A stretch of DNA of 53,538 nucleotides from a bacterium (lineage in GTDB: Bacteria > Cyanobacteriota > Vampirovibrionia > Obscuribacterales > JAKAZS01), in assembly GCA_021815785.1 (NCBI GenBank), contig JAKAZS010000009.1, positions 1-53,538 of the forward strand. Reading direction: 5' to 3'. The position numbers were made by a program, and so were the translations under genes. The notes under the pieces were generated by a model. That model saw only the letters and a list, made by a program, of their open reading frames with translations, searched no databases and was not told the origin of the DNA. Positions 8,629 through 37,880 of the stretch are shown piece after piece; the stretch's first letter is position 1, and every line of letters starts with the position of its first letter.

Positions 8629-11600
8629 TTAAAGCGTTGGCTTGTTGGTCTCATTTAGTTTTGCAACTAGTACTTGCCGGGCATTTTGGACTAGAATTTT
8701 TTGAGCCTTAAAGGACAATTCAATGTTTTTGAGCATATTTACACAGAGGCAATACATGTAATCAATGTTATTAGGTGTCATGAGATTTTGTTCTTTAGCA
8801 ATTTTCAGAGCATGTTCGGCCATAACGGTTGAGGCATCGGTTTCAATATTTTCAAATAAATTTTTAAATTCACTCTGAACCCCACGCATGCGGATAAATT
8901 CTTTGACTTCAAAGCCATACTGGCAGGGACTGGTGCATAAATGACAGGCTATTTCTGGGCCAGTTGCCCGTTTGCGGATTTCAAACATTTTGGTTTTCCA
9001 TTCGATAATTTTGGGCACATTTAGACTGCCTTTAGAATCATCATCAGTAAAGGCCAGGCGTAAAATAGCTAGCCATAAGCCATACACTTCCTGTAATTGG
9101 TCATAAAATGAATAGTTGAATTCACCGCGGCGTTCATAGTACCGTTCACTGGCTTGCGTCATAACGCACCATAAAATTCCATTTATAACATTATCTTTAG
9201 CCCGGCGACGTGAGATACGGTAAATGTCATTTATAAATAAGGTTTTATATTTATTGATAACGGTAAAGATTTTATGGGCTTTAATGGGGTCAGTATCAGT
9301 AGCAGGATTTTCAGGTTGATTAAGGCATTCCAGGATAAAGTTATTAAAAGACTGCCGAAATGAAGTATCATCACCAACTTCTTTAGCTAAAGCTAGAATA
9401 TAGGTGTCACACCGATGCAGGCAGTCTTTACAGCCATAATACTTGTCAAATTTTTCAACAATATTAAGTTTCTTCATAGCCTGGCGCACAACTTCATTGG
9501 ATTCTTCAGGCGTTTCTGGTGGTGGCACTTCTTTGGTTTTATCAAACATAATGGCTAAATGATAGGGTTGTTCCATTCTTTCAGCATAAACAACTGCTTG
9601 CCCCTGTTCAAGAGCAGTAGCATGCCGTTTGGATGAATCGTCCATATTCATAGCATCACCCATCGCATCACGATCATCTTTAGCGACAATCCGGTGCATG
9701 ATTTTAAGGTTAGTATTTTTTAAGGCTTCTGGGGCAAGTTTATTCGGAATTTGGTCGGCAATGATAAAGCCTTGTCCGTATGATCTTATTTCGGCTAGCA
9801 TATTGGTAAAAAATTCAACAGCTTTACCAGCTGGATTAGCTTCTTCACCAGACTGACCGGTTGGTACGTTTTTAAGCAGACGGTGAGCTTCTTCAACCAG
9901 CATTATATGTTGTAATTGATCATGGGGCCCTAAAGTTTCGCGATATTCATAGAGGAATACTAAGAGCATACCCATGAGAAATGACTTTTCACTGTCTTCT
10001 GAAACCATTTTTAATTCAACTACAGTTGGCCGGCCAAAGAGAATTTCAGGTGGTATCGAACGTCTGGTATTAAGCATTTGTCCTTTACCGCCAATAAGCA
10101 GTGAGCCAATTCTAGCTTTTAAGGCTGCCTGTACATCTGGACCAATACGTTCAGAATAGCCAAATGATTCGGTCACCGGATCAATAATTTCATAAAGATC
10201 TTTCATGGTTGGATAAATTTCGGGCGGACAGTTAGGATCGCCTGGTTTAATATGTGGTGGCAAACGCCGATTGATATTTTGAATAAGATCCCAGCCGCGA
10301 CAGCTATAAATTTCATTTAAGGCTTTTTCCATAACCTGAGGCATTGGGGCATACATTTCAAAACTGGCATTAAATACTGATTTTAAGGCATCTAAATGGG
10401 TTTGAACTTTAACGCCTTTCATTATTTCAAATGGGTTAAGGCGAAACGGCGATACCGTTTCATCGCCAAGTGAAAAGGCCTGGCCTATGCCTTTGAACGT
10501 ATCAGACATTAACATCATATGACGGTATTCAGATTTGGCTGGTTCGATTACCATAAAAGGAATATTAAATTTCCAGATTTGACCAAGTAAATAAAAACAG
10601 GTGTTGGTTTTTCCGCCACCAGTTACTCCGCATACTAAGGTGTGTTTTTGCAATGCGTCTACGTCAACAGCATATAAATTGCCAGTATCTTTGCGCTTAT
10701 CCAGAATATTGCCAACAGCAATTGAGCGCGCTGGATTTCGCGGAGATACTATTGAAGTGGTAAAATTGGCTGTGCGTTTAATTCTTAGCCCCGGCAATTC
10801 CTGTTTAGGTAAATGGATATAGGCTGAAAGCTGTCTTGAATTTAATGGTGTCATATATTTGTAGCCCATCAATGGGTTATAACTTTTATCTGGCCGAGGT
10901 GAACTGATAAGACCAAAATTCAGTAAATGGTCTTTAAAATTGTCATTTTTGATTAAGCGAAATGGAGTTGGCTTTGAATTTACATCAGAGTAGATAGCTC
11001 GCATTGAAGCTTCCAGTTGAACAAAGGAATTATAGTCGTTGGCAAAGAAATAAACAATAGACTGATACATTCCTAAGCTTACACCATTAATAATCTGATT
11101 CTTATAGATTTCCATAAGTTCCAGATACTGTTTGACAATGTGCTTTTTCTGCGCATCTTCAGCCATTTGAGTTTTTTCCAGTTGTTCAAGAACACTTTCT
11201 AATTCATTCATAACAAAGGTCTGGGGTATGGGTGAGGCTAAGGTAAGTACTCCGAATTTGCTTTTTCTTAAGCCAGAGGCCAGACGATCGACCTGATAAA
11301 AATCATTGCTATCAAGAGGATCCAGTCTTAAAGCTGGATTGCCTGTAGCAATACCAATGTAATTGGCATAGGGTTCAATTAGTTTAACGATATCGCTCCC
11401 GAAATACTGTTTGGGGTTGAATTCAATGCCGCGAAAAACAGTAGACAAACCATGTCTAATGAGATTGAAATTGTCAGTGACAATTTGGTTGGTATCAGTT
11501 AAATCATCCGGTGTACTTTGATCAAATTTATACATTGAAGAACCATAATAAAATTCGATTTTAGTTTTTGAGCCGAGGATTAAATAAGCAATATTAGCAT

Positions 11601-11874
11601 TGGTTTTAGCTGAACTTATAATTGCTGATTCCATCGGATAAAGGCGTTTAGGCCCTTGTTTGGGATCTTGCGGTTGATTGGTATTCTGATTCCGTCTTTG
11701 TTTTTCTAGTTCCAGATCCCAGGTTCTTAGTAATGATTCGACTTTGACAAAGATTAAATTGGTCATGGGGTGACTAATAATATCACTATCATGTTTGTCG
11801 TTAATCAAATAAAGTCTTCGCAAGTCAGCAATTTTTTCTTCCCAGATATTTAGTTGTTGATCAAATTCAGCCAT
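8629..11874 (-). CDS. HerA/DUF87-type P-loop ATPase, paralogue 1
   Basis: A 1081-residue ATPase of the HerA/FtsK-like class. Walker A GVTGGGKT is at residues 416-423, and Walker B (IMLVEEAHR) is around 657-665. The region between them contains the family stretch PFMVIEPAKSEYRHMML and NPFEIMKGVKVQTHLDALKS; sensor-type motifs follow (GQGFIIADQIPNKLAPEALK, MHRIVA). The N-terminal 380 residues (FVKVESLLRTWDLE...) are specific to this trio and contain a Gln/Asn-rich insert near 60-75. The C-terminal 250 residues carry two cysteine knuckles of spacing C-x2-C-x3-C (815/818/822 and 977/980/984), which suggests metal binding. No nuclease domain is seen. HerA-class proteins are hexameric translocases of DNA or, in relatives, secretion motors; the substrate here is unknown. 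No clear ribosome-binding site is visible. Confidence 0.85.
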   Translation of the reverse strand: MAEFDQQLNIWEEKIADLRRLYLINDKHDSDIISHPMTNLIFVKVESLLRTWDLELEKQRRNQNTNQPQDPKQGPKRLYPMESAIISSAKTNANIAYLILGSKTKIEFYYGSSMYKFDQSTPDDLTDTNQIVTDNFNLIRHGLSTVFRGIEFNPKQYFGSDIVKLIEPYANYIGIATGNPALRLDPLDSNDFYQVDRLASGLRKSKFGVLTLASPIPQTFVMNELESVLEQLEKTQMAEDAQKKHIVKQYLELMEIYKNQIINGVSLGMYQSIVYFFANDYNSFVQLEASMRAIYSDVNSKPTPFRLIKNDNFKDHLLNFGLISSPRPDKSYNPLMGYKYMTPLNSRQLSAYIHLPKQELPGLRIKRTANFTTSIVSPRNPARSIAVGNILDKRKDTGNLYAVDVDALQKHTLVCGVTGGGKTNTCFYLLGQIWKFNIPFMVIEPAKSEYRHMMLMSDTFKGIGQAFSLGDETVSPFRLNPFEIMKGVKVQTHLDALKSVFNASFEMYAPMPQVMEKALNEIYSCRGWDLIQNINRRLPPHIKPGDPNCPPEIYPTMKDLYEIIDPVTESFGYSERIGPDVQAALKARIGSLLIGGKGQMLNTRRSIPPEILFGRPTVVELKMVSEDSEKSFLMGMLLVFLYEYRETLGPHDQLQHIMLVEEAHRLLKNVPTGQSGEEANPAGKAVEFFTNMLAEIRSYGQGFIIADQIPNKLAPEALKNTNLKIMHRIVAKDDRDAMGDAMNMDDSSKRHATALEQGQAVVYAERMEQPYHLAIMFDKTKEVPPPETPEESNEVVRQAMKKLNIVEKFDKYYGCKDCLHRCDTYILALAKEVGDDTSFRQSFNNFILECLNQPENPATDTDPIKAHKIFTVINKYKTLFINDIYRISRRRAKDNVINGILWCVMTQASERYYERRGEFNYSFYDQLQEVYGLWLAILRLAFTDDDSKGSLNVPKIIEWKTKMFEIRKRATGPEIACHLCTSPCQYGFEVKEFIRMRGVQSEFKNLFENIETDASTVMAEHALKIAKEQNLMTPNNIDYMYCLCVNMLKNIELSFKAQKILVQNARQVLVAKLNETNKPTL

Positions 11875-11927
11875 AGATGTTTGTGATTAAATTAAGTTGA
11901 GGATTGGTTGGATTACCTTACAGATAT

Positions 11928-14900
11928 TTAGCTAAGAAACGAATCAATAGTTGCTGAAACCTTGTTTAAAAGTTTAAGCTGGGCATCAGCGGCCATTTTT
12001 TTCTTCATTATGTAATGAACGGAAATACAATAGGATAAGTCGCGTTCAGACATTACGGTAACACCGTTAGGTGGCGGATTAACATCATCATAACCAAAAA
12101 CATTCATAATCATTTTAGTTAAGATTATAGAAATATTGGCCATATTAACTTCCGGTGGTGATTCACTGTTTTCGTAAGACGAATCAAAATCAGCCATAAT
12201 TTTTTCATCCCTTAAAGTTTCTTCAATTTCAAAATGATACATACATTTAGATTTGCAGTTAGAGCATGCTGTAAATGGCCCTTCATTGCGGTTGTGTACT
12301 TGTTTATAAGTTTTCTTCCATTCAAGCTGTTGGGATTCTAAGGCCATAGAATTTTCGGTTGGATACAATATTAGTTTTAACAGATCTAGGAATTTTGCCT
12401 GTTCGTTATGGACTAAATTATAATACCACACATATTCTTCGCCCTTGCGTTCAAAAAAACGAGCAGTGGCCTGGGTTAAAGCGCACCAGATTAAGCCCTC
12501 CACTCGGTAATCTAAATAGCGGTCACCAATAATCCTCTGTACGAGCAGTTTAAGCTCTTCCATCCCATTTTGAAAGAAATAAAAATTATGGAAACTAGCG
12601 ATTATATAAAAATTAAACTGTTGCCGAAAATAGGCATCGTCAGCTACCATTAAGGCATCCGTAAAAATATCGGAGACATTACGGGTGGGACAGGTAGCGC
12701 AACCCATAAATTTATCAAATTTATTTAAAATATCTAACTCTTTCATGGCGTCACGCACAATCTGATCAGATTCTTCAGGCGAATCTGGTGGTGGCACTTC
12801 TTTGGTTTTGTCAAACATTACCGCTAAGTGATAAGGAACTTCCATTTTTTCGGCATAGACAGCGGCTTCACCTTGACCTAAAGCTGTTACATGACGTAAT
12901 TGAATTTTATCTAAATTCATGGCGCCACCCATAGATTCACGATCGTCGTTAGCCACAATACGGTGCATGATTTTAAGATTGGTATTTTTCAAGGCTTCAG
13001 TAGCTAGTTTATTGGGAATTTGGTCGGCAATAATAAAACCCTGACCATAAGAACGAATTTCAGCTAACATATTAGTAAAAAATTCAACCGCTTTACCAGC
13101 TGGATTAGCACTTTCCGATGCCTGACCGGTTGGTACATTTTTTAAGAGCCTGTGGGCTTCTTCAACTAACATTATGTGTTGCAAATTATCATGTGGTCCA
13201 AGGGATTCACGATATTCATAAAGAAAAACTAGTAACATTCCCATAAGGAATGATTTTTCGCTATCTTCTGATACCATTTTCAATTCAATTACGGTCGGTC
13301 GACCAAATAGAAGTTCAGGCGGAATTGAGCGCCTGGTATTAAGCATTTGTCCTTTGCCACCAATAAGCAGTGAGCCAATTCGGCCTTTCAAAGCGGCCTG
13401 AACGTCTGGTCCAATTCTTTCAGAATAGCCAAAAGATTCCGTAATTGGATCAATTATTTCAAATAAATCCTTCATGGTTGGATAAATCTCACTTGGGCAG
13501 TCGGGATCACCAATTTCAACACCTGGTGGTAAGCGCTTATTGGTGTTTTTTACTAAATCCCAGCCTCTTACCGTGTAAATTGCATTTAAGGATTTTTCCA
13601 AAACCTGAGGCATCGGTGAATACATTTCAAAACTGGCATTAAAAACTGATTTAAGGGCGTCTAGATGAGTCTGGACTTTAACCCCTTTCATAATTTCAAA
13701 AGGATTTAGGCGAAATGGCGATACTGTTTCATCGCCAAGCGAAAAGGCTTGACCCACACCTTTAAACGTTTCTGACATAAGCATCATGTGGCGATATTCA
13801 GATTTAGCTGGTTCGATTACCATAAACGGAATTTTATAATGCCATAACTGTCCTAACAGATAAAAACTGGTATTGGTTTTACCGCCACCAGTTACCCCGC
13901 AGATAATGGTGTGTTTTTGCAAAGCGTCAACATCAATGTAGTAAAGATTGCCGGTATTTTTGCCTTTGTCTAAAATATTCCCAATAGCGATTGAGCGGTT
14001 TGGATTTTTAGGTTTAATTTCGGCCAAGCTAAATTCAGCATAACGCTTAACTTTAAAGCCACTAATCTCTTGTTTGGGCAAATGGATAAAGGCTGAGAGA
14101 TATCTTGAATTGAGTGGAGTTAAATATTCATAGCCTAAAAGCAAATTGCTGCTGGGGCTATTTCGGGTATTGGTGGGTAAGGCAAAATTGTAGATTAACG
14201 TTGCTAAATTTTTGTCGCAGATAGATTTAAGCGCATTAGGTCTGGATGTTTCATCGTTATAGATTGAATTAACAGTTCGCTGTAAAAGCTCAAGCGTTGC
14301 TTTAGTGTTAGCAAACATATAATAACTGGTCTGAAAGGCACCGATTCTATTACCTAATTGAATTTGCTTTAAATATAAATCAGCCTGTTCAACATAAAAT
14401 TTGGCGCGGGCTTTTTTTTCAACATCTTCTGATTCAAGTGCCTTTTGGAGTAAGACCAGTTCATTTTGTTCTTCTTCGATAAGATTTTTTTTCGGAATCG
14501 CTGCGGCTAAAACCATTATGCCAAATTCCTTACCTTGCATAGCGGCTGCGATTCGTTCAATTTGCTCGGATTCAAATACCTCACCAAGGGTATATTCAAT
14601 ACCCGGCATTCCTGAAACTAAACTTGAATAATTTAACAGTGGTTCTATGGTATTTTGGATTTCGCTAGCGGTAAAAGGCGTGGGGTGAAAAATTAGACCG
14701 TTGTATATGCTATCCAGATTGGCGGTTAAATTGTTAAAATTAAATTTCCGGATGGATTCTTCATCCAGGGTATAACCGTCAATTTTAGCCATATCTTCAA
14801 AAATAGCCATTACCTGGGGTGGATAACTGGCTCCCATGTAGTAACTTATGCCTTTGTTATTGCCAACGATTAAAAAGGCTAGATAGGCACTTTGGGCATG

Positions 14901-15167
14901 CAGAGCGGTTAGCGTTTCTTCCATGAGATATTTATTTTTGGGTAACTGGCCTGGTTCAGTAAGACTTGGCGCTTGGGTTAAAATCTGTTTTTCATTATCT
15001 AAATCCCAGGAGCGATAGATACCATCAATTCGCACAAAAGTAAGACCTGGTATCGGGAAATAGGTAAATTCACCAGCGTTTTGCTTGGTCTTATCTTCAA
15101 GGCCAAAACCCATAAGGTCAGTATATTTCTGTACGTAGATATTTTTGTCGTGAAATTCTATGGCCAT
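11928..15167 (-). CDS. HerA/DUF87-type P-loop ATPase, paralogue 2
   Basis: A 1079-residue paralogue of its downstream neighbour, 53 bases apart in the same direction and probably cotranscribed. Walker A is at 424-431 and Walker B (LVEEAH) at 667-672. The central block from GVTGGGKT to KTKEVPPP is almost identical in protein sequence to the other two copies, whereas the first 380 and last 270 residues are only moderately similar. The second cysteine knuckle is intact (968/971/975), but the first keeps only CATC (823/826): its third Cys is replaced by Asn (CPTRN). GAG lies upstream of the ATG at a suitable distance. The divergent 375-base region before it also serves the giant gene. Confidence 0.85.
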   Translation of the reverse strand: MAIEFHDKNIYVQKYTDLMGFGLEDKTKQNAGEFTYFPIPGLTFVRIDGIYRSWDLDNEKQILTQAPSLTEPGQLPKNKYLMEETLTALHAQSAYLAFLIVGNNKGISYYMGASYPPQVMAIFEDMAKIDGYTLDEESIRKFNFNNLTANLDSIYNGLIFHPTPFTASEIQNTIEPLLNYSSLVSGMPGIEYTLGEVFESEQIERIAAAMQGKEFGIMVLAAAIPKKNLIEEEQNELVLLQKALESEDVEKKARAKFYVEQADLYLKQIQLGNRIGAFQTSYYMFANTKATLELLQRTVNSIYNDETSRPNALKSICDKNLATLIYNFALPTNTRNSPSSNLLLGYEYLTPLNSRYLSAFIHLPKQEISGFKVKRYAEFSLAEIKPKNPNRSIAIGNILDKGKNTGNLYYIDVDALQKHTIICGVTGGGKTNTSFYLLGQLWHYKIPFMVIEPAKSEYRHMMLMSETFKGVGQAFSLGDETVSPFRLNPFEIMKGVKVQTHLDALKSVFNASFEMYSPMPQVLEKSLNAIYTVRGWDLVKNTNKRLPPGVEIGDPDCPSEIYPTMKDLFEIIDPITESFGYSERIGPDVQAALKGRIGSLLIGGKGQMLNTRRSIPPELLFGRPTVIELKMVSEDSEKSFLMGMLLVFLYEYRESLGPHDNLQHIMLVEEAHRLLKNVPTGQASESANPAGKAVEFFTNMLAEIRSYGQGFIIADQIPNKLATEALKNTNLKIMHRIVANDDRESMGGAMNLDKIQLRHVTALGQGEAAVYAEKMEVPYHLAVMFDKTKEVPPPDSPEESDQIVRDAMKELDILNKFDKFMGCATCPTRNVSDIFTDALMVADDAYFRQQFNFYIIASFHNFYFFQNGMEELKLLVQRIIGDRYLDYRVEGLIWCALTQATARFFERKGEEYVWYYNLVHNEQAKFLDLLKLILYPTENSMALESQQLEWKKTYKQVHNRNEGPFTACSNCKSKCMYHFEIEETLRDEKIMADFDSSYENSESPPEVNMANISIILTKMIMNVFGYDDVNPPPNGVTVMSERDLSYCISVHYIMKKKMAADAQLKLLNKVSATIDSFLS

Positions 15168-15542
15168 CTTATACTCTAAGGGTTACGTTAAAATTCAAGT
15201 TTCGTTAAACATTTTAAATATTATACTAGTAAATTTCGAATAAAGCTAAAATTCTGTTTTCAAGGAGAATTGATAGTCGTTAGTTAAAACTTGGTTTACA
15301 GCTAATGCTTCAGTCGGGTCAAAAACTGATTGCGGAAAACTTCTCTAGTAGAAACTGGTTAATTATATTTAACACAATGGTCTCGGTTTTTGTTTAAATT
15401 CTTTCTTTAATAGGCTTTCAAGTTTGACTTTTATTACAGGGCGTTTATCTTAATAAAGTTATAAGGGTCAAAAGAGGCCTTGATTTTATATAATTAAGCC
15501 TTATAACTTTTAAATTTTTGACGTAACTTGAGGTTCTAAATT
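15168..15542. other. Divergent intergenic region between ATPase 2 and the giant gene
   Basis: These 375 bases separate two divergent large genes and should hold both promoters. The part near the giant gene contains a long inverted repeat, listed separately, and GAGG 9 bases before its ATG. A 30-codon frame at 15305-15397 has no ribosome-binding site and is not called. Nothing else is recognisable. Confidence 0.5.
15455..15510. promoter_or_regulatory. 12-bp inverted repeat around a TATAAT box before the giant gene
   Basis: AAAGTTATAAGG (15455-15466) is matched exactly by its inverse CCTTATAACTTT (15499-15510), with 32 bases between. A TATAAT hexamer lies at 15489-15494, inside the loop. No good TTGACA is found 17 bases upstream. 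A repressor or activator binding both arms would bracket the promoter; alternatively the transcript could fold. The arms end 32 bases before the ATG. Confidence 0.4.
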
Positions 15543-18500
15543 ATGTTCATTAGTAATGTCGGTGACCACTGTGGCATTAATTATTTGTTTAAGTCTTTAT
15601 GTTTAAAGGTTATAGCTATAATTTTGATATTCTGTCAGGTTTTTAGTCAATCGGCCATGGTTTATGCCAGTCAAACCGGTAATTATAACAGCAGTTCCAT
15701 CCACAATCAGGTTAATCATGATGGACTATTGCCTGGTTTAGCTCATGAAAATGGTCAGGTAATAATGGGTTTTAATTCGCCATTAATTAACTCTACCTCT
15801 GAAATTAGTTCGATTTTACATAGCATTGTAAATTCTAGTCTAGACTTAAATTCGCTGGTAAAATCCCAAGATTTTGTTAATTTGCCCCATGAAATTAGCC
15901 TAAGCATAGGGCTACATAGTTTAACAGTTAAAGATGACCAGTTTTTAACACCAGCCGAAGCTGTAACTGTTAATCAGCTGTTAACGACTGGTCAACAGTC
16001 TTTAGTCCTTAATTCGTTAGGGCAGGCCGTTGGTGGTAGTTTGAATGTAAGTATACTTGGTAATAATATAAATAATCTTGAATTGCCACGCGGTGTTACG
16101 TTAATAGATACTGGTAGTAATTTTTTGGTTAATGGAAATTTGGTTAATTATGGAGATATTGAATTTACCATGGGTGGCAGCCTTCAGGCCAATGCTATCG
16201 TTAATGAGGGTGGTAGTTTGATAAGTTCATCTAATAGCTTGGTAATTTCGAGTAATTATTTGTTGAACGAAGGAGGCCTTTATGGCGCAAATGGTGTCAG
16301 CCTTGTTTCACCCTTTATCTATAATTCAGGCACTATTGAAGCTGGTTTAGGAAATATTAATATTTCTGGTGTCAATACATTAGATGTTACTGGTACTCAG
16401 GATAGTATTTTTCAAGCCGGTTCAGGTGACATTAACCTAGAAGTCGGTAAATCATTATTGTCTAATAGTAATTTACCTTACGGTATGAATTTGATTTACG
16501 GTAATTACTTGAGTCATGAATTGAATTTAAACGCTAATTCTGGATATGTTCAAGGGTTTACGGGAAATGTTACTGGACAGATAAATACGTTAGCTGATAG
16601 CGTTCATTTGGCAACGCAATCTGGTGACATGGTAATTGGCAACACTATCGTTAATGGTGACCCGACTTACGTAAATACAAATGGAAACATTACCTTGAAC
16701 GGAAGTATAACAACTGACGGAGCACCTTTATCGATTATTGCCAGTGGTAATATAAATATAGCCAGTGGTTCAGCTACGAGTATTAATACTCAAGCTAATA
16801 ATTTAAGTGGTGGCAATGTTGTTATGATAGCTGGTGTTGGTAGTAATATTTCTTATTCGGGTGCTAATAACACAACTGGAATCCCTCTTCCTGGAATAGC
16901 TATTGGTAATACGGAAACTGTTTCGGTTCAGCTTGGTGCTAGCTCTGGAAACACAGGTGGAAATATAGATTTGGTTACGAATAATAATTTAGCCAATGGA
17001 AGTACTATAATAAATACAGCTGGTAGCGTTAGCGGTGCAAGTACAGTAGGTGGAAACGTTGTATTGGTAGCTATCGCCAATGGGAGTGTTGGTGGCGAAG
17101 TCTTAACCGGTAATGGTACAACAAATTATGCCATAGAAATTGGAATGCCTGGTACCAGTATTGTAAATGGGCAATTAACTGTAATTAGTAGCGCTAATAG
17201 CGGAACCGGAATTAATCTTGGTTCAGTTATATCAACCAATGGTACTTTTGCTTCTAGTGCTGTCGAATTATATACGGCGAATCCTCTGGTTGCAAATATA
17301 GTATTTGATTCGTCCGGAAATTATACTGGTTCAATTTCTGCTAATGTTAATAGTTTATCTGGTTCAGATATTGTGATAAATTCGTCGCTTAACTTAGGTG
17401 GAGTTCAATTAGCTATTATTTCAGGTGGCAGTATTTCCATTGCCAGTGGTGCTAGTTTAAACACGCTTGAAAGTTTAAATCTGCAAGCTGCAACAGGTGG
17501 TATTGGCAGTGCGTTAAATCCGGTTTTAACTGAGGCTAATTCCCTTACTTTATTAGCCCCTGGTGGTAGCGCATATATTAACGATAGTTCTAAGTCACTA
17601 ACTTTAAATAATTTAACTGTTAGTTCTTCGGGGGTATTAGATTTATCAATGACCAATACGGCGTTTGGCATGTTAACAATTAATGGTTTGCTCTCAGCTG
17701 GTAACGATAGTGGGACTGGGGAAGTAATTATAAATATTGATTCGGCTATTTCGAATTTTGTCACTTCTAATTCAGCTCTTATTCAATCCGGTAGCGTAAA
17801 CCTTGTAACTGGTGGTGGAAGTATAGGTAAAAGCGGTAATGTTAATATTGACACCAGTCAGATAAGTGTGAAAATAGCTAATAACCTTACATCTCCCATT
17901 GTAAATTTAACCGATAGTTACAGTGGTTTAGTGAATCTTTCCAATTCCAACATAAATATCGGCAATAACGGTACTTTCTCTTTTGAAATGACTAATTCAA
18001 CGCTTGGGAGCATTTTCTTAAATGGGTCAATGACGATAAATAACGGAATTGTTAATATAGTTGCATCTGGATCTGGTTCGATTAGCCAAAGCAACAGTAA
18101 TGATATTTTAACGGCTAATTCAATTACTCTATCGACTTCAGGCAATAATATTGGTACAGCCAATTTGCCGATAAACACCGCTGCAAGTACTTTATCTTTA
18201 AGTACACTAAATAATTCGTCATCTTCGGGTAGTATTTTTATTAATTCTCAATTATCACTAAACAGTTTTAGTGCTTTGGCCGGTAATCAGGTAAATTTAC
18301 AGTCCTTTTGGGATTTGTATCTGTACAATGTAACTGGTGATAATATAAACATTAGCGCCGGCAGTTCAGATATATATATTCTTGGAAATATCGGCAATCC
18401 GATTATCCCTGGCTCGATTCCGACAAGTACTGTAACTTTATCCGCTAAGGACATTTATTCGTATTATGTATCACCGCTTGGTTACTCTTTAGTTGGTGGT

Positions 18501-33500: not shown

Positions 33501-34568
33501 CTACCAGCCAATGCCATCACTTTAGGTGGTAATGTAAGTATTACAGCTGATCCGCCAGTAGCGCCAAACAATATTGGTATCGTTCAGAATAGTGTTAGCG
33601 GCAATGTTAGTATTACCGCTGATCTGCCGGTTTCGTCGTTAGTTAATTTAAGTGGGTTAAACGTGATTCAAAATAATATTGCCAATATGAATTTAGTCAC
33701 GCCAAATGCTACCAGCCTAGCTAATTCAAACTTGTTTAATAATGCTGCTATGAATGTATTAGATAATAACCAAGCTACAGCGATAACTAACAATAGTAAT
33801 AATGTTAATAGCAACAAAGCCAGCGAATACAGTTATTTAACAGATAATGAAGACAATAATGAAATAGTCAATAATACTAGCTTAATAATGCCAATAGCTT
33901 ATAACCATGAAGTAGCTAGCTTAACTGCTCAATCAATCAATGCCAATAATAGCTTAGCTGTTAGCAATGCCGCTAGATGCCAAACCAGTGGTTTGACTTT
34001 TAACTTTGGAATTAGTAACAATGCTAAGAATAATGCAAGTCTTAGCTATGGCAGTGTCGTAATAAGCGCCAGCCACAATATGGAAATAAGTTTAGGCTCG
34101 GGTACTAAGCTTAGCCTAAAGCGTGGAGCTATCGTGTTAGCGATAGCTAACGGCAACGTTGTAAGTGTATACGATTTACACGACAATAGCGCTAATAGTG
34201 TAGTGGTAACTGGTAAAGGTGTAAATGCTATAGCTCTAGCCCCAGGCCGACACGTAACGATTGCCAAAACTAATAGTGCTATCGACTTTGCCTACGTCAA
34301 TCAGGTAGGTAAAATAGCCTACCGTGGCCTAAATACCACATTGAAAAATGGTAACGCCTCGTATGTAAGCGATTTCTCGATACCCAGTGCTATAAGTGCG
34401 ATTAAGCCATTAAAAACCATGTTTAGAAGCAATGATGCTAAGGTCGCAGCTTTAGCCAATCAGATCTTTAAGACAATAGTTGTAGTAACGCAAAGCACAA
34501 GTGGTAGAGGTGTTTACGAACAAGTAGTTAAGCCAAAGTTAATTGTTAACTGCTCTAACTCCTGGTAA
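15543..34568 (+). CDS. Giant secreted repetitive adhesin-like protein with FecR-like C-terminal region
   Basis: One open frame of 6341 codons without interruption, with GAGG upstream of the ATG. Residues about 14-43 are a long signal peptide (LKVIAIILIFCQVFSQSAMV, cleavage near YAS). Residues about 80-310 are homologous to the second giant gene at the window end (LHSIVNSSLDLNS, NYGDIEF, NEGGLYGANGV, AGLGNINI). Almost all the rest is Asn/Ser/Thr/Gly/Ile/Leu-rich short-strand repeats of beta-helix/filamentous-haemagglutinin character, with a recurring motif of type SAYLNDxA. Larger modules are duplicated (listed separately). Residues about 6150-6260 resemble a FecR-type domain (LSYGSVVISASHNMEISLG ... 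LKRGAIVLAI ... ALAPGRHVTIAK). No sortase motif, outer-membrane barrel or canonical TPS motif is seen. The likely role is a cell-surface filament or adhesin; the export route is unknown. Confidence 0.85.
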   Translation: MFISNVGDHCGINYLFKSLCLKVIAIILIFCQVFSQSAMVYASQTGNYNSSSIHNQVNHDGLLPGLAHENGQVIMGFNSPLINSTSEISSILHSIVNSSLDLNSLVKSQDFVNLPHEISLSIGLHSLTVKDDQFLTPAEAVTVNQLLTTGQQSLVLNSLGQAVGGSLNVSILGNNINNLELPRGVTLIDTGSNFLVNGNLVNYGDIEFTMGGSLQANAIVNEGGSLISSSNSLVISSNYLLNEGGLYGANGVSLVSPFIYNSGTIEAGLGNINISGVNTLDVTGTQDSIFQAGSGDINLEVGKSLLSNSNLPYGMNLIYGNYLSHELNLNANSGYVQGFTGNVTGQINTLADSVHLATQSGDMVIGNTIVNGDPTYVNTNGNITLNGSITTDGAPLSIIASGNINIASGSATSINTQANNLSGGNVVMIAGVGSNISYSGANNTTGIPLPGIAIGNTETVSVQLGASSGNTGGNIDLVTNNNLANGSTIINTAGSVSGASTVGGNVVLVAIANGSVGGEVLTGNGTTNYAIEIGMPGTSIVNGQLTVISSANSGTGINLGSVISTNGTFASSAVELYTANPLVANIVFDSSGNYTGSISANVNSLSGSDIVINSSLNLGGVQLAIISGGSISIASGASLNTLESLNLQAATGGIGSALNPVLTEANSLTLLAPGGSAYINDSSKSLTLNNLTVSSSGVLDLSMTNTAFGMLTINGLLSAGNDSGTGEVIINIDSAISNFVTSNSALIQSGSVNLVTGGGSIGKSGNVNIDTSQISVKIANNLTSPIVNLTDSYSGLVNLSNSNINIGNNGTFSFEMTNSTLGSIFLNGSMTINNGIVNIVASGSGSISQSNSNDILTANSITLSTSGNNIGTANLPINTAASTLSLSTLNNSSSSGSIFINSQLSLNSFSALAGNQVNLQSFWDLYLYNVTGDNINISAGSSDIYILGNIGNPIIPGSIPTSTVTLSAKDIYSYYVSPLGYSLVGGGMIYADNLSLTGINNIGQPNLPVNISAINLNLYASGNVVVNNQNVVETPATGTTSAQYYPLEIQYNPFVHFDYLSLTSSNSIVTNSPLTASSSSGSSEIDLTVLNNGTIIQNGSSNTFTANTIKITADTGVIGSASMPLYIDSNNIFINSYASVFLNDVSAVNINSSFIGGTFSLVDTVGVSMTSNQTLTAIQDISINSSSSLNVSNVYSLYGGINLTNTSNELSVNSGSVLDAGNGVLILNSLSTTNGLINIGSNSVLVATNASNPANNNEIILAIGSIPSSPTNTNIPNNATVKTSNGGNVYFGVNSITANSPVNNISADTYNVVFSGSSGSNAIVLSGGDTIIAQQGIIIPSLDLTQSSVTSALINMQSAGIIGGSLIVNSSGVATGGNVIFNPQDILTNLSALNIPYNVSVQVTSLSNSVPLNEFVNITANSSTSQVTIDGTEQFTTTGGGSLVNIYTNGSVLIFGGNLSSDGNLNVVSYGNFTTQGSNSVISAVNRINISTSPDSATSSINLYGELMASSAISVITLASSAILGTSIIDAISAGSINLTSYNGEIGMTTYALDGSVMIAPIYINSTNLYINMTGLPGSANAAYISDAASSLLVGNGEITATNGPSLYYTMTNSTSGSITVDVGGLGAIPNTYGSTLPVNYFETINLTASGSGTITSNSKGAVIAQNLNLTSDTGNIGTSQSSPLYVISGNLTVSSSQGNVYLNSNAISYTQNLDLPVILNSSGTFYITGNSSLNVTYPISVGSANGSGQIIITVGNVSSGFVQNFTAGTVNIGANEGSIGSSSSVINIDSANISLNALNGYYNTSSVYADDTYTGTINLSASSAGVDGVFDLQASGNLNITGNVSAGTTFDSGIIGINLLSNSSITNTSNSTITAGTINITSNSGNIGVSDISPLYINTAQLTLNTNDASAYIDNSCTNILNLVNSTIGGGLYLTDSGAVSIRVMNAFNNVNVLASSDLSVYSNLLVTNGGISLVSSGNSIFIGNSINIDALNGSVIINDTNTVTGSITIGSNVNITGYQVNQPSNNNEVIMAIGNIPTSFNNSQIPANVVVNNINGANVYFGTNSITASAPVNTINANTYNVVFSGSSSSTPITLSGGVIINAQPGLYIPSLDLTQSFVATSLVNLQSSGLIGGALTLNNSGVAIGGNVILTPQDYISNLSAMNIPAGVTLTLNGFTNSTPVNVNLSNASTTQQVIINGIEQFITSGGGSSGQLNISSSLSSPNQPLLLINGSLTSDGSLNVDVMGNINVTNNAIVSAVNSINLLTLPGSNGSITNDGSITATSTSSIVTLNANGTGSISSGSSSAVITANTVSLTSLMQSIGLSAINPIYIDASNLIINTQYSAYLNDSATSLLLTASSVNVGNSAVFSLLMSNNTNGNIVIGNGGLNIGNGTLDLSSTNISQSSSSDVLTANTMNFSVGGLLGTSSSNPMVIDSGNLNVNANGASVYLSDLYTNNVVLNTINQTYGGPFYLTSASGIIINGVLNGNQTYLTASGNGTITSANPNDIIYGEVILASSNGNIGVSQADPLYINSIYISVNNNASAFISNAFSGGNQISNSNVSINSAGTFYLSTPDAISDSGIYIVGSLTVGTDTGSGQIILSVGSQGEISQANSSDIITAGSINLTSDNSGIGISNSNKLVVDTANLTANSAYSNVFISNNYTGNLNLNQSGSNDNFVLTDSGSITMAAASVLNANLSVSLTSETGLYVNSIAVASGTMSLITAAGILDVTNGSTLYAGNGALILNNTNSTGGSITIGSNVSIDGYSGSAPSNNNEIILAIGSIPTSPQNTTQPANVTVNTSNGANVYFGINNIIANTPNNAINANTWSVVFNGSSSTTPITLDGGVTINSNPGFYINSLDLTNSTVTANLLALQSNGSIGGNLVVNSSGVATGGNVIFYASKDNLSQLAATDIPANVTVEFNGYTSSNPVQTNLTNLSTSQQVLINGSEEFITTGSASGAIVNVSDSLTTVTQPLMLVGGSLTSDGSLSVNVSGSLSIAANAIISSQGNLSLEASGNVSIANAASVTSQGDLSIQNATGSSGSITIDGDISANATSGVITLASDGSGNITNAGINNAIIANTLNLITTGGNIGNSQSIPLYTNALNINFTTQNIGNIYVYNLSSNLLNIGSLNSQNISIVNNSAIDIAGNLTASGDIFISAGSSLTIGANITANNSVNLNASQNGSILANSPSDVITGGSVFLATVGENIGSSNQYIYVNTENLNIYALGGIPTASAYVNDINSTLLNLNSAQIASLGSLNLSVDSSCNILGPLVSGSNFNLSAAGDIIVGDTVTGSVNSIIDLIANGSISTSANSDVLSAFNVELNTDGQNIGSNTQSVMLNAASFSVNTLNSVNLTGSAYINDAANSVILNTSSLGTANSLNLVSLGSVLVSGSVTAGSDSSTSVIDINANGSINTVSGSTTDSLVAGNVNLNTSNAGSDIGSLTQGVLVDANNVSVTTGKTSGSAYVYDLSPNNITITSVSVGTASNDTFGFSGFNSATTSITLATGLIISAPNIIVASINGSIGDGTGASQVFNINSNNVTFNAMSNSVYVNDIVSGPVNFVNITSGSNVVSNAADLNGGGTYYFSDNNSNSQSNFLTINGASISGNFVQLSSKYWFIGASNNFLNLDANNLSINTTIGAYLNDTANNVTLNNFVLGQDVGLTVVSTGGIVVDGSINAGINGGVILLTASGTGNITSVNSTDVVTANRLFLTSASGSIGTASNNLFINTDSFIINTAANSYLNDSANTAFVSNANITVGSAETFSLIMNNATSGSITIASGGLSIANGTITLQASGSGNITEVNLASILTATSINLASDSSDLGSSSSVNSFIVNSPNLSLNTAASAYINDLASSVNLDTSSVGAANILNLTTQNIIINGQITAGTDNGSGAIFLNANGTINTVAGSVTDILTAGYVNLNTSASGGNIGSLTNGVLVDSDNVSIATGNLTGSAFVNDVSVNNITIDSANIGDSSSDTFGFSGVNSSTTGISEATGLTITATNIVIASVNGSIGIGTGLLQTFNINSNNVTFNATSNSVYVSDSASGNINFVNVLSGSNVVNNAADLNGSGTYYFVTTSQLSSANFVTLSGSSITANYLNLVNNQGSIGNLSDNFSINANNLNINSANFAYINDTANSVNLNSSVISASGTLSLTCSGSIYVMNEVSAGSIILTAAGSVLNVNANSIISTQSGSLILNNTNTTSGSITIGANAVLNGMSVQAPSNNNEIYIIIGSLPSNPVNTAVPANVTVNNLFGANTYFGTNGIIANSPNNTINANTWNVIFNGSTNLTPITLDGGVIINSQPGFVINSLDLTNANVTSNILTLQASGAIGGNLIVNSSGVATGGNVIFYGSKDNLSQLTAEDIPSSVTVEFNGFTLSNPIDVNLTSSSTNSQVVINGNQEFISTGGGSSGIMDVNSTFTGATSLNIGNSGIISSDGNLAVVVEGNVQINGQILSQGNLTLSTSTGNNSNIDIANNITSANGIVTISVNGSGAISQTNGLISGNTVSLIAGVSTIGTPSSNLIISAPNLTLNSNGYVYVSDTLNQLANVDSVSTLAGLSLTTTSSVDLNGSILASNNITINSGLNILIAGSLTVLGTGSIDLTVTGTGNIAQASSSNLVTAQSIDLTSGSSDIGAIGSINAFFVNCQTLSFLTSGNAYINNLSSVGFNLNASSVGVGDNLDLVSNSSITINGVINAGLDTGTGNISLAVIGTGNILSNNSNDLLTAGNIALSSYFGNLGNSANNLFVDAGNINIKSAGDAYLNDMASLANLSNTNIIVGNNNVFSLVMSNLVSGSISINSGGLHVGNANGNGTIDLTASGTGSIQENGVNSVLVASAINLKSVNGDIGLINPTAYPLYINTASLSVYSLASVNINNIGSCTVNASQAQELYISESGTSANLNLNGNMQANTVNLITDNNGNIVINAIISGLSGSDANNVTLKASGSIIELLGGVGNPNILTGSLNLYSSTGSIGSSGITGQTAIDTDASNLLVSASANGNAYVFDTNTSTINLQGGSALSFNLTTTASNITLNILNILAGNIININAASNTNIVIQCTIEGIGINPSFIDGNGNSMNDATSVTIQTNGTGNILSTVNTNLGEIYTESLSLISGSGNIGMTIPNSLLYYNIATDATTLSAKTSGDVYLDDLNLTANVNMIASSGNIINYTGQYLTFTGLINVNNLYVQANQSITITNTIEGLSAGTDAQTVNLNTGGSVISLINTTTPIILTQNLAISSLSGNIGSSGISGQSVIFTDASSLTFSTSKNVYVSDSNSNVINIYPSSILSPSPTNPNIFNLVSTGNLTGLIFNGNFVANSFTLTTYSSATNLNIVGSSSGTIYSTSNFTLISNGNLSNLNFNSKVNSSDVVITLEKSGNIIFANNLQNNSEITAASTTLTVDGSGSILSQNGSLNPSIIGDYLFLNAGIGSIGSVNGNGYSSLVINVENLTSVSSGNVYLTDVNSAGITINASSGNLLNLTVENSTNNVNIGGTLNFNTIDLAVSDASSYAYANQSFIIVNSDVLASNINFSTAQFGGITVNSTVGTANSNVSFDVQGTGYITTGTNGVIIGNGLSLVSSGGEIGFNGAGLITQANNIVFSAGLSVGINNTSANLNVGNSGSGANVYVITSGNLTGSGTITAPVVGLYSIYGTSGIGTSGNIMQLDAHNIGIEAFATSSSVYVNDTYTGSTIMQASQASNIFKLDTAGALTIYAQINQGGVTTLGKIAGSIIAIAANDANGGYGIYNDANIVANDFIFLTASGNGYIAEPATGALMYAPNVSLVSGGGAIGADGRILLNSTNVAASTVGLNSFVNIYDEAANSSIVGGQSGSYFTFNTNGNVNIYGGIATGAGTKANGGAINISANGSLNVGVNGTGISMTTNNGPIVVINNSATNGSIDLAKGDYIYTNTPSSATPGYIVFNVGAYAQTNTTNPNPANISDTTSGGANIFYGVNGISAPLGGNVLNAKGQSIVFNTGSLPANAITLGGNVSITADPPVAPNNIGIVQNSVSGNVSITADLPVSSLVNLSGLNVIQNNIANMNLVTPNATSLANSNLFNNAAMNVLDNNQATAITNNSNNVNSNKASEYSYLTDNEDNNEIVNNTSLIMPIAYNHEVASLTAQSINANNSLAVSNAARCQTSGLTFNFGISNNAKNNASLSYGSVVISASHNMEISLGSGTKLSLKRGAIVLAIANGNVVSVYDLHDNSANSVVVTGKGVNAIALAPGRHVTIAKTNSAIDFAYVNQVGKIAYRGLNTTLKNGNASYVSDFSIPSAISAIKPLKTMFRSNDAKVAALANQIFKTIVVVTQSTSGRGVYEQVVKPKLIVNCSNSW
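19120..20010 (+). repeat. Giant-protein module A (first of four about 900-bp modules)
   Basis: It encodes the ordered motifs GNGVLILN, INIGSN, ANNNEIILAIGSIPSSP, NVYFGVNSITANSPVN, TYNVVFSGSS, IPSLDLTQS, VNSSGVATGGNVIF, and EQFTTTGGG followed by SDGNLNV. The same order occurs in modules B, C and D. The boundaries are approximate. Confidence 0.8.
21430..22350 (+). repeat. Giant-protein module B
   Basis: The same motif order as module A: GSITIGSNVNITGY, PSNNNEVIMAIGNIPTS, GANVYFGTNSITASAPVN, TYNVVFSGSS, IPSLDLTQS, NNSGVAIGGNVIL, EQFITSGGGSSG, SDGSLNV. It starts about 2.3 kb after module A. Confidence 0.8.
23665..24600 (+). repeat. Giant-protein module C
   Basis: The same motif order: GNGALILNNTN, GSITIGSNVSIDGY, PSNNNEIILAIGSIPTSP, GANVYFGINNIIANTPNN, TWSVVFNGSS, INSLDLTNS, VNSSGVATGGNVIFYASKDN, EEFITTG, SDGSLSV. 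It starts about 2.2 kb after module B and is closer in sequence to D than to A. Confidence 0.8.
25632..26320 (+). repeat. Giant-protein duplicated segment, copy 1
   Basis: It encodes SAYINDAANSVILNTSSLG, then GSLTQGVLVDANNVSV, DTFGFSGFNS, INSNNVTFNAMSNSVYVNDI and SNAADLNGGGTYYF. The same order recurs about 1470 bases downstream with many substitutions, so this is an old duplication inside the gap between modules C and D. Confidence 0.75.
27102..27789 (+). repeat. Giant-protein duplicated segment, copy 2
   Basis: It encodes SAYINDLASSVNLDTSSVG, GSLTNGVLVDSDNVSI, DTFGFSGVNS, INSNNVTFNATSNSVYVSDS and NNAADLNGSGTYYF, matching copy 1 at 25632-26320 along its length. Confidence 0.75.
28040..28960 (+). 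repeat. Giant-protein module D
   Basis: The same motif order: SLILNNTN, GSITIGANAVLNGM, PSNNNEIYIIIGSLPSNP, GANTYFGTNGIIANSPNN, TWNVIFNGS, INSLDLTNA, VNSSGVATGGNVIFYGSKDN, QEFISTGGGSSG, SDGNLAV. It starts about 4.4 kb after module C, roughly twice the A-B and B-C spacing. A shorter degenerate relative (NIFYGVNGISAPLGGNVLNA) is found near 33400-33500. Confidence 0.8.
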
Positions 34569-34676
34569 GCAGATAATTAGAGGTTCTAAAGTAAGTATAA
34601 TGAATATACCTATGTAATTCAGGTAAGCACGCCAAAATTAATCACTATGTGGTAAAGCCAGGCTAGTTAAATAATA
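34569..34676 (+). other. Region after the giant gene with a vestigial C-terminal-like tail
   Basis: This short convergent gap has no clear terminator hairpin. In one frame, bases about 34602-34655 read YTYVIQVSTPKLITMW and then a stop. This resembles the true end of the giant protein (YEQVVKPKLIVNCSNSW, stop), which may indicate a remnant of an older or duplicated 3' end. The match is short and may be chance. Confidence 0.3.
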
Positions 34677-37600
34677 TTATTTTATGTCAAAAATACTGGG
34701 AAAAGCTGAAGCCCCTGGTTTAGCAGGATCTGATTCGTTGCTATCTTCAATTTGCGCGCGGATTTGGGTTAATTTTTCTAATTCTGAATTTTCCCGCAAG
34801 CCTAGTGCTTTGATTAAATGCAAGGCGATGCAATATGATAAATCATTGTCATTGATATTTTCGATTAAGCCTTTGGCTAAAGCTGAACTATATTTGCTAA
34901 TAGGTTCAACAATTGCACCTTCTTGTTTGCCCATCATTTGTTCAAAATCAGCCTGAATTTTAGGATTACGGACTAATTCGGAAACTTCGAACTGATAGGC
35001 ACAGTGATTTTGACAGTTAACACAGCCAGCATAAGGTCCTTGGCGTTCCTGATTGAATTTTTGTAAAATCTGTCGCCATTGTTCAAGGGTTTTTTCATCG
35101 ACAGTGGGATTTAAATTATCATGAGGAAACATCAGTCTTAAAATTTCTAAAAAGAAATTATGGAATTTGCGTTGAATGTCATACTGCCAGGATGCTAATT
35201 CACCACGGCGATCATAATAGCGTTCGGTAGCTTGGGTCAAGGCACACCAGGTAACACCAGTTAAATTGGTTTCATCAATAACGCTACCAGATATACGTAA
35301 AATCTCTTTAAAAAATAAATCGCGATAATTTAATATTTGTTTGGGGTTATGCATTATATCTAAAATGAATTGATTGTATAACTGACGAAAAGACTGATCG
35401 TCAGCTATCGGAATGGCTTTATCCAAGATTTTGGTATCGCAGCGGTAAACACATAATTTACAGCCTAAATGGCGGTCAAACTGAGATACAATATTTAATC
35501 CAGCCATGGCATCGCGTACTATTTGATCAGATTCTTCGGGAGTTTTTGGTGGTGGCACTTCTTTGGTTTTGTCAAACATAATTGCTAGGTTATAGGGTAT
35601 TTCCATCTTTTCCGCATAAACGGCAGCTTGACCTTGACCTAGCGCTGTTACATGGCGTTTCTGATTTTCTTCAATATTCATAGCTCCACCCATGGAGTCA
35701 CGATCATCTTGAGCAACAATCCGGTGCATTACTTTAAGATTGGTGTTTTTTAAAGCTTCCGGAGCTAGTTTATTAGGAATTTGGTCAGCAATTATAAAGC
35801 CTTGACCGTAAGAGCGAATTTCGGCTAACATATTGGTGAAAAATTCTACGGCTTTACCAGCCGGATTAGCACTATCGGAGGACTGACCGGTAGGTACATT
35901 CTTAAGTAGTCGGTGGGCTTCTTCTACCAGCATTACATGTTGAAGATGGTCGTGTGGACCAAGTGACTCACGATATTCATAAAGGAAAACGAGGAGCATA
36001 CCCATAAGAAATGATTTTTCGCTGTCTTCTGATACCATTTTAAGTTCAACAACTGTGGGTCGACCAAATAATATTTCGGGCGGAATGGATCGCCTGGTAT
36101 TAAGCATCTGTCCTTTACCGCCAATAAGCAGTGATCCGATACGGGCTTTTAAGGCCGCCTGTACGTCTGGTCCAATCCGTTGTGAATAGCCAAAAGATTC
36201 AACTATGGGATCAATAATTTCATAAAGATCCTTCATTGTTGGATAAATTTCGGGTGGGCAGTTAGGATCACCTGGCGCTATATTTGGTGGTAACCGACGG
36301 TTGATATTCTGGACAAGATCCCAGCCCCGGACAGCATATATAGCGTTTAAAGCTTTTTCCAGAACCTGAGGCATCGGGGCATACATTTCAAAGCTGGCAT
36401 TAAATACTGATTTTAAGGCATCAAGATGGGTTTGGACTTTAACTCCTTTCATGATTTCAAAAGGATTTAGGCGAAATGGTGAAACGGTTTCATCGCCAAG
36501 CGAAAAGGCTTGCCCAATACCTTTAAATGTTTGGGACATTAGCATCATATGGCGATATTCAGATTTAGCTGGTTCAATTACCATAAACGGAACTTTATAA
36601 CTCCAGAGCTGTCCTAGTAAATAAAAACAGGTATTGGTTTTACCGCCACCAGTTACTCCGCAGACAATGGTATGTTTTTGCAGAGCATCGACATCAATAC
36701 AGTATAAATTACCTGTATCTACCCCTTTTTCTAAGATGTTACCAATAGCAATTGAGCGGTCGGGATTTTTCGGCTTGACTTCGCTTGCGGTAAATTCGGC
36801 ATAGCGGTAGATTCGAAACCCTGTAAGTTCACGGCGGGGAATATGAATTAGTGCTGATAATTGCCTGGCATTTAGGGGCGTTAAATATTTATAGCCGGTG
36901 ATTTTATTGTAACAGGTATCAGTTCTTGTATTACTAATAATACCAAAATCTAGTAAATGTTTGGGCAGATTTGGTATCCGTAAATTACGCACAGGGGTAG
37001 GTAAGTTGTTCTCGCCACTAAATACCCCTCTTAAGACATTATCTAATTTGGTAAATGAGCCTAATTCATTGCTGAAATAATAGGTAATAGTCTGAAATAG
37101 ACCCACTCCGGTACCAGTATCGAGCTGTTTATAGTAGGCTTCGACTAATTCCAGATAATGTTTAATTAACCGTTTCTTTTCGGCATCTTCATTTTCCTGG
37201 GCTTTTTGAATTTGACGGCTTACGGAAAACATTTCTTCACTAACCAGATTTTCTGGTACCGGAATAGCCAAAGTCATGATACCAAACTTTTCACCTTGCA
37301 TACCACTAGCAATTCTTTCCAATTGTTCACTGTCGCGCGTATCCACTGAAGACTGGCGGATACTTGGAACCCCGGTTAAAATACCGACGTGTTTGGCATA
37401 AGGCTCAATAATTTTGCGAATGTCGGCTTGGGTAAACCCTTGTTTATTAATGGGAATACCCGTATAGACGCTTTGGAGAATGTAGGTAAGGTGATTATAG
37501 GTTTCTTCAACATAGTTTGTCTCGTCTAAGCCATTTATCGCGGTGCCCAAATAGAATTTGATATAGGTTTTATCGCCAATAATTAAATAGCCAAAATTGG

Positions 37601-37880
37601 CTCTAAGCCCATATAGACTTGCCAGGACATCTTCCATTGCGTACTGGCGTTTTGGTCCTTGCGTGGGATCATTGTTTTGTTGCCCTTGTTGATTGCGCTG
37701 CTGTTTATCTTGGTCCTTATCCCAGGAGCGAAGCAAGCCCTCAATCTGGACAAAAACTAAATTAGGTAAAGATTTGCTAATGATATTTTCACTAGGATCA
37801 TAACCTGAATCTAGATCACTGCGATAAAGATCACGGATTTTATCGTTCCAGATATTAGTCTTAGATTCATTATTGTCCAT
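34677..37880 (-). CDS. HerA/DUF87-type P-loop ATPase, paralogue 3
   Basis: A 1067-residue third member of the ATPase family, convergent with the giant gene. Walker A GVTGGGKT is at 408-415 and Walker B (LVEEAH) at 651-656. The core around these motifs is nearly identical in protein sequence to the two copies upstream of the giant gene. Both cysteine knuckles are intact (807/810/814 and 953/956/960). The N-terminal half is closer to paralogue 1 than to paralogue 2: both carry a Gln/Asn-rich insert near residue 65 and the stretch QGPKR. A C-terminal Pro/Ser-rich tail follows the last helix. The ATG has no obvious ribosome-binding site. The substrate is unknown; HerA-class translocation is the best family-based guess. 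Confidence 0.85.
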   Translation of the reverse strand: MDNNESKTNIWNDKIRDLYRSDLDSGYDPSENIISKSLPNLVFVQIEGLLRSWDKDQDKQQRNQQGQQNNDPTQGPKRQYAMEDVLASLYGLRANFGYLIIGDKTYIKFYLGTAINGLDETNYVEETYNHLTYILQSVYTGIPINKQGFTQADIRKIIEPYAKHVGILTGVPSIRQSSVDTRDSEQLERIASGMQGEKFGIMTLAIPVPENLVSEEMFSVSRQIQKAQENEDAEKKRLIKHYLELVEAYYKQLDTGTGVGLFQTITYYFSNELGSFTKLDNVLRGVFSGENNLPTPVRNLRIPNLPKHLLDFGIISNTRTDTCYNKITGYKYLTPLNARQLSALIHIPRRELTGFRIYRYAEFTASEVKPKNPDRSIAIGNILEKGVDTGNLYCIDVDALQKHTIVCGVTGGGKTNTCFYLLGQLWSYKVPFMVIEPAKSEYRHMMLMSQTFKGIGQAFSLGDETVSPFRLNPFEIMKGVKVQTHLDALKSVFNASFEMYAPMPQVLEKALNAIYAVRGWDLVQNINRRLPPNIAPGDPNCPPEIYPTMKDLYEIIDPIVESFGYSQRIGPDVQAALKARIGSLLIGGKGQMLNTRRSIPPEILFGRPTVVELKMVSEDSEKSFLMGMLLVFLYEYRESLGPHDHLQHVMLVEEAHRLLKNVPTGQSSDSANPAGKAVEFFTNMLAEIRSYGQGFIIADQIPNKLAPEALKNTNLKVMHRIVAQDDRDSMGGAMNIEENQKRHVTALGQGQAAVYAEKMEIPYNLAIMFDKTKEVPPPKTPEESDQIVRDAMAGLNIVSQFDRHLGCKLCVYRCDTKILDKAIPIADDQSFRQLYNQFILDIMHNPKQILNYRDLFFKEILRISGSVIDETNLTGVTWCALTQATERYYDRRGELASWQYDIQRKFHNFFLEILRLMFPHDNLNPTVDEKTLEQWRQILQKFNQERQGPYAGCVNCQNHCAYQFEVSELVRNPKIQADFEQMMGKQEGAIVEPISKYSSALAKGLIENINDNDLSYCIALHLIKALGLRENSELEKLTQIRAQIEDSNESDPAKPGASAFPSIFDIK

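Follow-up and report, generated by a model that had tools for sequence, protein, structure and literature searches.

Triplicated ATPases with a predicted VirB4-like fold and their VirD4-like genomic companion in the Obscuribacterales

Results

Three ATPase paralogues around a giant surface-protein gene

The window analysed here, a stretch of 53,538 nucleotides, is contig JAKAZS010000009.1 (C129) of a 2.9-Mb, 144-contig genome (GCA_021815785.1) from a genus of non-photosynthetic cyanobacterial relatives in the order Obscuribacterales. It carries three paralogous ATPase genes on the minus strand, P0001 (8629–11874, 1081 amino acids), P0002 (11928–15167, 1079 amino acids) and P0003 (34677–37880, 1067 amino acids). 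On the plus strand between P0002 and P0003 lies P0004 (15543–34568), which encodes a giant surface protein of 6341 amino acids rich in Asn, Ser and Thr. All four frames are open without interruption, which confirms the layout described in an initial annotation of this DNA, namely three ATPases bracketing a 6341-codon gene with two on one side and one on the other. Read in the direction of transcription, P0002 comes before P0001, with 53 bp between them.

All three ATPases, which we assign to the VirB4/HerA clade, contain a Walker A motif (GVTGGGKTN), a Walker B motif (LVEEAH) and a DUF87/HerA central domain, and the Pfam model PF01935 scores above its cut-off in each of them. In P0003 the Walker A motif spans residues 408–416 (36633–36659, minus strand) and the Walker B region lies around residues 649–654 (35919–35936, minus strand). 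Pairwise identity within the trio is 53–60% overall but differs strongly between regions, with 33–45% in the N-terminal part, 85–89% in the motor core and 30–34% in the C-terminal part. The description of the three proteins as near-identical was thus overstated and fits the core only. The constant core next to diverged N- and C-terminal domains suggests that the copies are specialised. P0002 is the fastest evolving of the three, while P0003 is nearest in sequence to the orthologue found across the order. The C-terminal Cys knuckles that had been noted before are present as two clusters, GCxxCxxRC and CxxCxxxC, comprising C807, C810 and C814 (35439–35462) and C953, C956 and C960 (35001–35024) of P0003, both on the minus strand; in P0002, however, the first cluster is missing its third Cys. 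A fourth ATPase copy was not found in the genome assembly.

Predicted fold of the ATPases

Structure prediction points to a VirB4-like protein. In a fold search with the full-length ATPase the 13 best matches are chains of the R388 type IV secretion system (T4SS) bearing VirB4/TrwK, ahead of HerA, with E-values down to 2.6e-9 and a probability of 1.0. A model of the N-terminal domain of P0003 (residues 1–372) has a predicted local distance difference test score (pLDDT) of 79.8 and a predicted template modelling score (pTM) of 0.82. Below an E-value of 0.001 this model retrieves R388 VirB4/TrwK entries only (12 chains, best E-value 4e-6, probability 1.0), and a HerA barrel is not among these matches. 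The predicted VirB4/TrwK-like fold covers residues 1–370 of P0003, encoded at 36771–37880 on the minus strand. As judged by structure prediction, the N-terminal domain of the ATPase therefore has a VirB4-like fold, and the motor belongs to the HerA/VirB4 clade. The initial label of a HerA-type ATPase holds for the DUF87/HerA motor core, but not for the N-terminal domain. Low scores are obtained with the NCBIfam HerA equivalogs, which remain far under their cut-offs (e.g. 33 of 970 bits); the top-scoring equivalog model for the motor core is CedD, with 54–64 bits against a cut-off of 600. The absence of NurA, Sir2 and DUF4297 partner genes is borne out in the window by Pfam and PADLOC searches.

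A VirD4-like gene accompanies the ATPase

The ATPase gene is present in 48 of 53 Obscuribacterales genomes, mostly as one full-length copy each, and in none of the other members of the class that we searched outside this order. The immediate upstream neighbour of the ATPase gene in the sister family encodes a membrane ATPase resembling VirD4/TrwB, roughly 1000–1500 amino acids long. This protein combines a zinc ribbon and apparent membrane segments with a TrwB/TraD-like motor, and the CedB model gives a weak match to it. The order of a coiled-coil gene, the VirD4-like gene, the ATPase gene and a small gene (c2) is kept in this family. Across the order the VirD4-like gene occurs in 47 of the 53 genomes and is likewise missing in the five without the ATPase, so that 47 genomes have both genes and five neither, with one mismatch (p = 2.1e-6).

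In the genome studied here the VirD4-like gene is located on another contig, C98, in its ancestral neighbourhood, which across the genus consists of an rRNA-methyltransferase-like gene, a SelA-like gene, the coiled-coil gene and the VirD4-like gene. The ATPase is absent from C98, which ends shortly after the VirD4-like gene. In the two congeneric genomes, G292 and G293, the VirD4-like gene is followed by other genes and not by the ATPase; in G292 (locus L117, 12979–18694) TadE/TadG-like genes, recognised by eye, occupy the place where relatives have the VirB4-like ATPase. A search for c2 in the present genus, which had no positive control, was empty. By profile, no VirD4-like partner was found beside distant ATPase relatives in photosynthetic cyanobacteria or on plasmids, and the pairing is thus shown only within the order. 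We found no description of this ATPase pair in the open-access literature searched.

A further gene lies next to the pair in most sister-family genomes, convergent with and downstream of the operon of the VirD4-like gene and the ATPase (L133–L142; sister-family loci L054–L082). Its product has LysM-like motifs and a zinc ribbon as well as a conserved C-terminal region, and could be a cargo, an envelope anchor or unrelated to the pair.

Triplication within one genus

The tripled ATPase gene is confined to the genus of this genome. In a phylogenetic tree the trio and the congeneric orthologues, which for P0001 occur in both congeners, form one clade with a support of 100, which places the triplication within the genus and before the split of its species; the order of the duplications is uncertain owing to long branches. 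P0002 and P0003 of this genome are alike at 202 of 307 core synonymous positions compared to 165 of 329 for orthologues between species (p = 8e-5), and the same comparison for P0001 and P0003 gives p = 0.013. These values are a modest hint that gene conversion may have acted on the motor core (residues 371–790) beside diverging tails. The P0003 and P0002 orthologues of G292 are 6 bp apart with no giant gene between them; this contig stops inside the second gene, and what follows there can only be inferred. The P0001 orthologue of G292 lies on a separate contig among ordinary genes.

More distant relatives of the ATPase are found in defence-like neighbourhoods (L119, L120, L130, L131, L132), with dynamin-like and HNH genes in Lactococcus, DUF2357 in Photobacterium and Hsp70/MreB-like genes in photosynthetic cyanobacteria.

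The giant gene belongs to a dispersed family

P0004 is a member of a family with about 20 loci in this genome. Its conserved first 600 residues (15543–17342, plus strand) have 23 matches here and 24 in G292, while its conserved last 199 residues (33969–34565, plus strand) have 19 matches here and as many as 34 in single genomes of the sister family, where open frames with this C-terminal region reach 9534 amino acids. Genes for such giant Asn-, Ser- and Thr-rich surface proteins are expanded across the whole order, and a second family member starts at 52524 within the window (52524–53538). As all three ATPases sit on C129, family members on other contigs have no adjoining ATPase. At its start P0004 has a putative Sec-type signal stretch. 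N-terminal pieces of the giant protein gave no Pfam or NCBIfam match to a haemagglutinin-activity domain of two-partner secretion, and a search of the genome with PF03865 (TpsB/ShlB) was without a match, as was its positive control anywhere.

Related genomes with either the ATPases or giant proteins but not both, at rates expected by chance, had been named beforehand as the finding that would speak against a common system. Among the 53 genomes, 35 carry both, 13 only the ATPase, four only giants and one neither (Fisher p = 1), demonstrating that the two are unassociated; the four genomes with giants only carry 8–31 of them each. The chance that a giant neighbour falls into one of the four gaps of a three-gene array is about 3%. 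With about 20 such loci in the genome, we regard the adjacency as no more than chance would give. Counts of ATPase matches and of giants in the sister family show a weak positive correlation (rho 0.31, p = 0.027), which we set aside because distant and partial matches enter the ATPase counts and larger genomes are richer in both. The backbone shared with G293, at 94% identity, extends to window position 15268; beyond it a giant in the opposite orientation stands beside the P0002 orthologue, and the synteny breakpoint maps to 15268–15542. Inverted repeats able to flip the giant were not found beyond chance short matches. We reject a link between the ATPases and the giant on the basis of the co-occurrence data, the empty site in G292 and the inversion in G293. 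We judge P0004 to be an incidental neighbour with no demonstrated role in the ATPase system.

Other genes of the window

Two Ser/Thr protein kinase genes precede the trio (3489–4919 and 4926–8627). The second also encodes tetratricopeptide repeats; its end and the stop of P0001 lie one base apart, and part of a homologue of this kinase gene adjoins the P0001 orthologue in G293 as well (L044). A sub-cutoff match to the NCBIfam model 'ser_rich_anae_1' provided no functional lead.

Discussion

A probable VirB4-like motor of a chromosomal translocator

Taken together, the predicted fold and the VirD4-like companion lead us to consider it probable that the three ATPases are VirB4-like motors of a stripped-down, chromosomal T4SS-like translocator, that they were duplicated and specialised in this genus and that the giant gene is incidental. 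The three ATPase genes are lineage-specific duplicates of one that is conserved across the Obscuribacterales, and this ancestral gene lies directly downstream of the VirD4/TrwB-like gene. Its product may form a cytoplasmic VirB4-like ring that works with an inner-membrane ring of the VirD4-like protein, and these two stacked or cooperating motor rings would move DNA or protein across the inner membrane. By analogy, the pair could represent a minimal chromosomal translocator of the Ced kind. In the present genus the motor gene left the locus of its partner and tripled.

Several observations weigh against this interpretation. The model of the full-length ATPase is poor (pLDDT 61.7, pTM 0.42), and the template modelling score of the N-terminal domain to VirB4 is borderline at 0.47, i.e. 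under 0.5. A profile comparison of this domain with VirB4 finds nothing (probability 0.4%), the Pfam VirB4 model has no match in the ATPases, and VirB6/TrbL (PF04610) was undetected in 10 genomes with a model whose positive control matched in 3 of 14 cases. The VirD4-like and ATPase genes are unlinked in the present genus. Physical linkage in incomplete genomes may account for part of the co-occurrence of the two genes, since they adjoin in the sister family and shared absences there could reflect one missing contig. As the sequence-profile link is negative, we base the VirB4-like assignment of the N-terminal domain on fold. With the profiles blind and VirB6/TrbL undetected, we call the ATPase VirB4-like in its probable working but refrain from classing it among T4SS members.

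Comparison with known systems

The closest structural likeness is to VirB4/TrwK of the R388 T4SS, with which the ATPases share the predicted N-terminal fold and a C-terminal RecA-like motor. VirB4/TrwK partners the coupling ATPase VirD4/TrwB, and a VirD4 relative is the consistent genomic companion here. In contrast to VirB4/TrwK, our ATPases lack an N-terminal sequence match and a detected VirB6/TrbL, have extra C-terminal Cys clusters, and are chromosomal, order-wide and tripled in one genus. The nearest working parallel to the pair is the crenarchaeal Ced DNA import system, in which CedB and CedD, two HerA-clade ATPases that co-occur, both carry VirB4-like N-terminal domains (PMC11868833). 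Both systems comprise two co-occurring chromosomal ATPases. The present one differs in being bacterial and in that one ATPase is VirD4/TrwB-like; a CedA-like membrane channel was not recognised in searches with the VirB6 Pfam model only.

HerA helicases, as in HerA-NurA, HerA-Sir2 and HerA-DUF4297, share the DUF87/HerA motor core, but differ from the ATPases described here in their nuclease or Sir2 partners, which the window lacks, and in the N-terminal domain, which the fold search did not identify as a HerA barrel. TdtA of Thermus thermophilus is an orphan motor of the HerA/FtsK superfamily required for DNA donation; unlike the present ATPases it is about 64 kDa in size, is encoded by an integrated mobile element and acts together with a homologue of NurA (PMC5365140). 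DUF87 proteins of actinobacterial plasmids (Rhodococcus opacus pRoPD630_2 and others) are 32–37% identical over 63–84% of the length, and the R. opacus relative sits between relaxase/mobC and a T4SS coupling-protein gene. These proteins are, however, plasmid-borne and divergent, and the copies in Streptomyces and Embleya have no annotated T4SS genes nearby. Several very large extracellular proteins are also encoded in one small genome of Apilactobacillus kunkeei (PMC12863079), which resembles the giant family in gene size and number; here about 20 dispersed loci are found in a cyanobacterial relative.

Alternative explanations

The adjacency of the genes had suggested that trio and giant form one system, in which the ATPases would serve as motors for export or assembly of the surface protein. 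The giant next to the P0002 orthologue in G293 would fit it, as would the sister-family ATPase operon facing another, unrelated giant gene with LysM motifs (2541–5933 amino acids). We nevertheless regard it as highly improbable: 13 genomes have the ATPase without a detected giant of this family and four the reverse, giants lie on other contigs with no ATPase beside them, the G292 tandem contains none, the orientation in G293 is opposite, and the putative Sec-type signal stretch of P0004 also speaks against it. Among the earlier suggestions, the evidence favours translocation machinery unrelated to the giant.

The ATPases might instead be genuine HerA helicases that serve in DNA end resection or in phage defence with no recognised nuclease partner. 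DUF87, the sub-cutoff HerA matches in the core and the more distant relatives in defence-like neighbourhoods on plasmids are in line with this. The lack of NurA, Sir2 or DUF4297 genes nearby, the predicted VirB4 rather than HerA fold of the N-terminal domain and the near-universal, single-copy, syntenic inheritance across the order, unlike that of a defence island, make it unlikely. We assign a similarly low likelihood to the view that the pair exports proteins, chiefly the convergently encoded giant LysM protein in the sister family, and that in this genus the cargo is a different one or has been lost. In most sister-family genomes the pair indeed faces this gene, whose product is conserved in its C-terminal region and lacks an obvious N-terminal signal, and C-terminal signals are frequent in T4SS cargo. 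However, the neighbour is absent in some relatives (L053, L061, L077 and G296), and c2 was not found in this genus.

Implications

Within the translocator that we favour, a more far-reaching version is conceivable, though we hold it with considerable reserve: an undescribed, vertically inherited envelope translocator built from a VirB4-like and a VirD4-like protein, without the usual T4SS parts, for which one genus has evolved three specialised VirB4-like subunits with one core and three sets of docking domains that may form mixed rings.

The analysis corrects a tempting but wrong association, as giant neighbours are to be expected in genomes full of giant genes. If the proposed translocator is real, a whole order of non-photosynthetic cyanobacterial relatives would inherit a chromosomal, conjugation-like machinery. 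This would be a bacterial counterpart of archaeal Ced and may provide a route by which bacteria known chiefly from metagenomes exchange DNA or export proteins.

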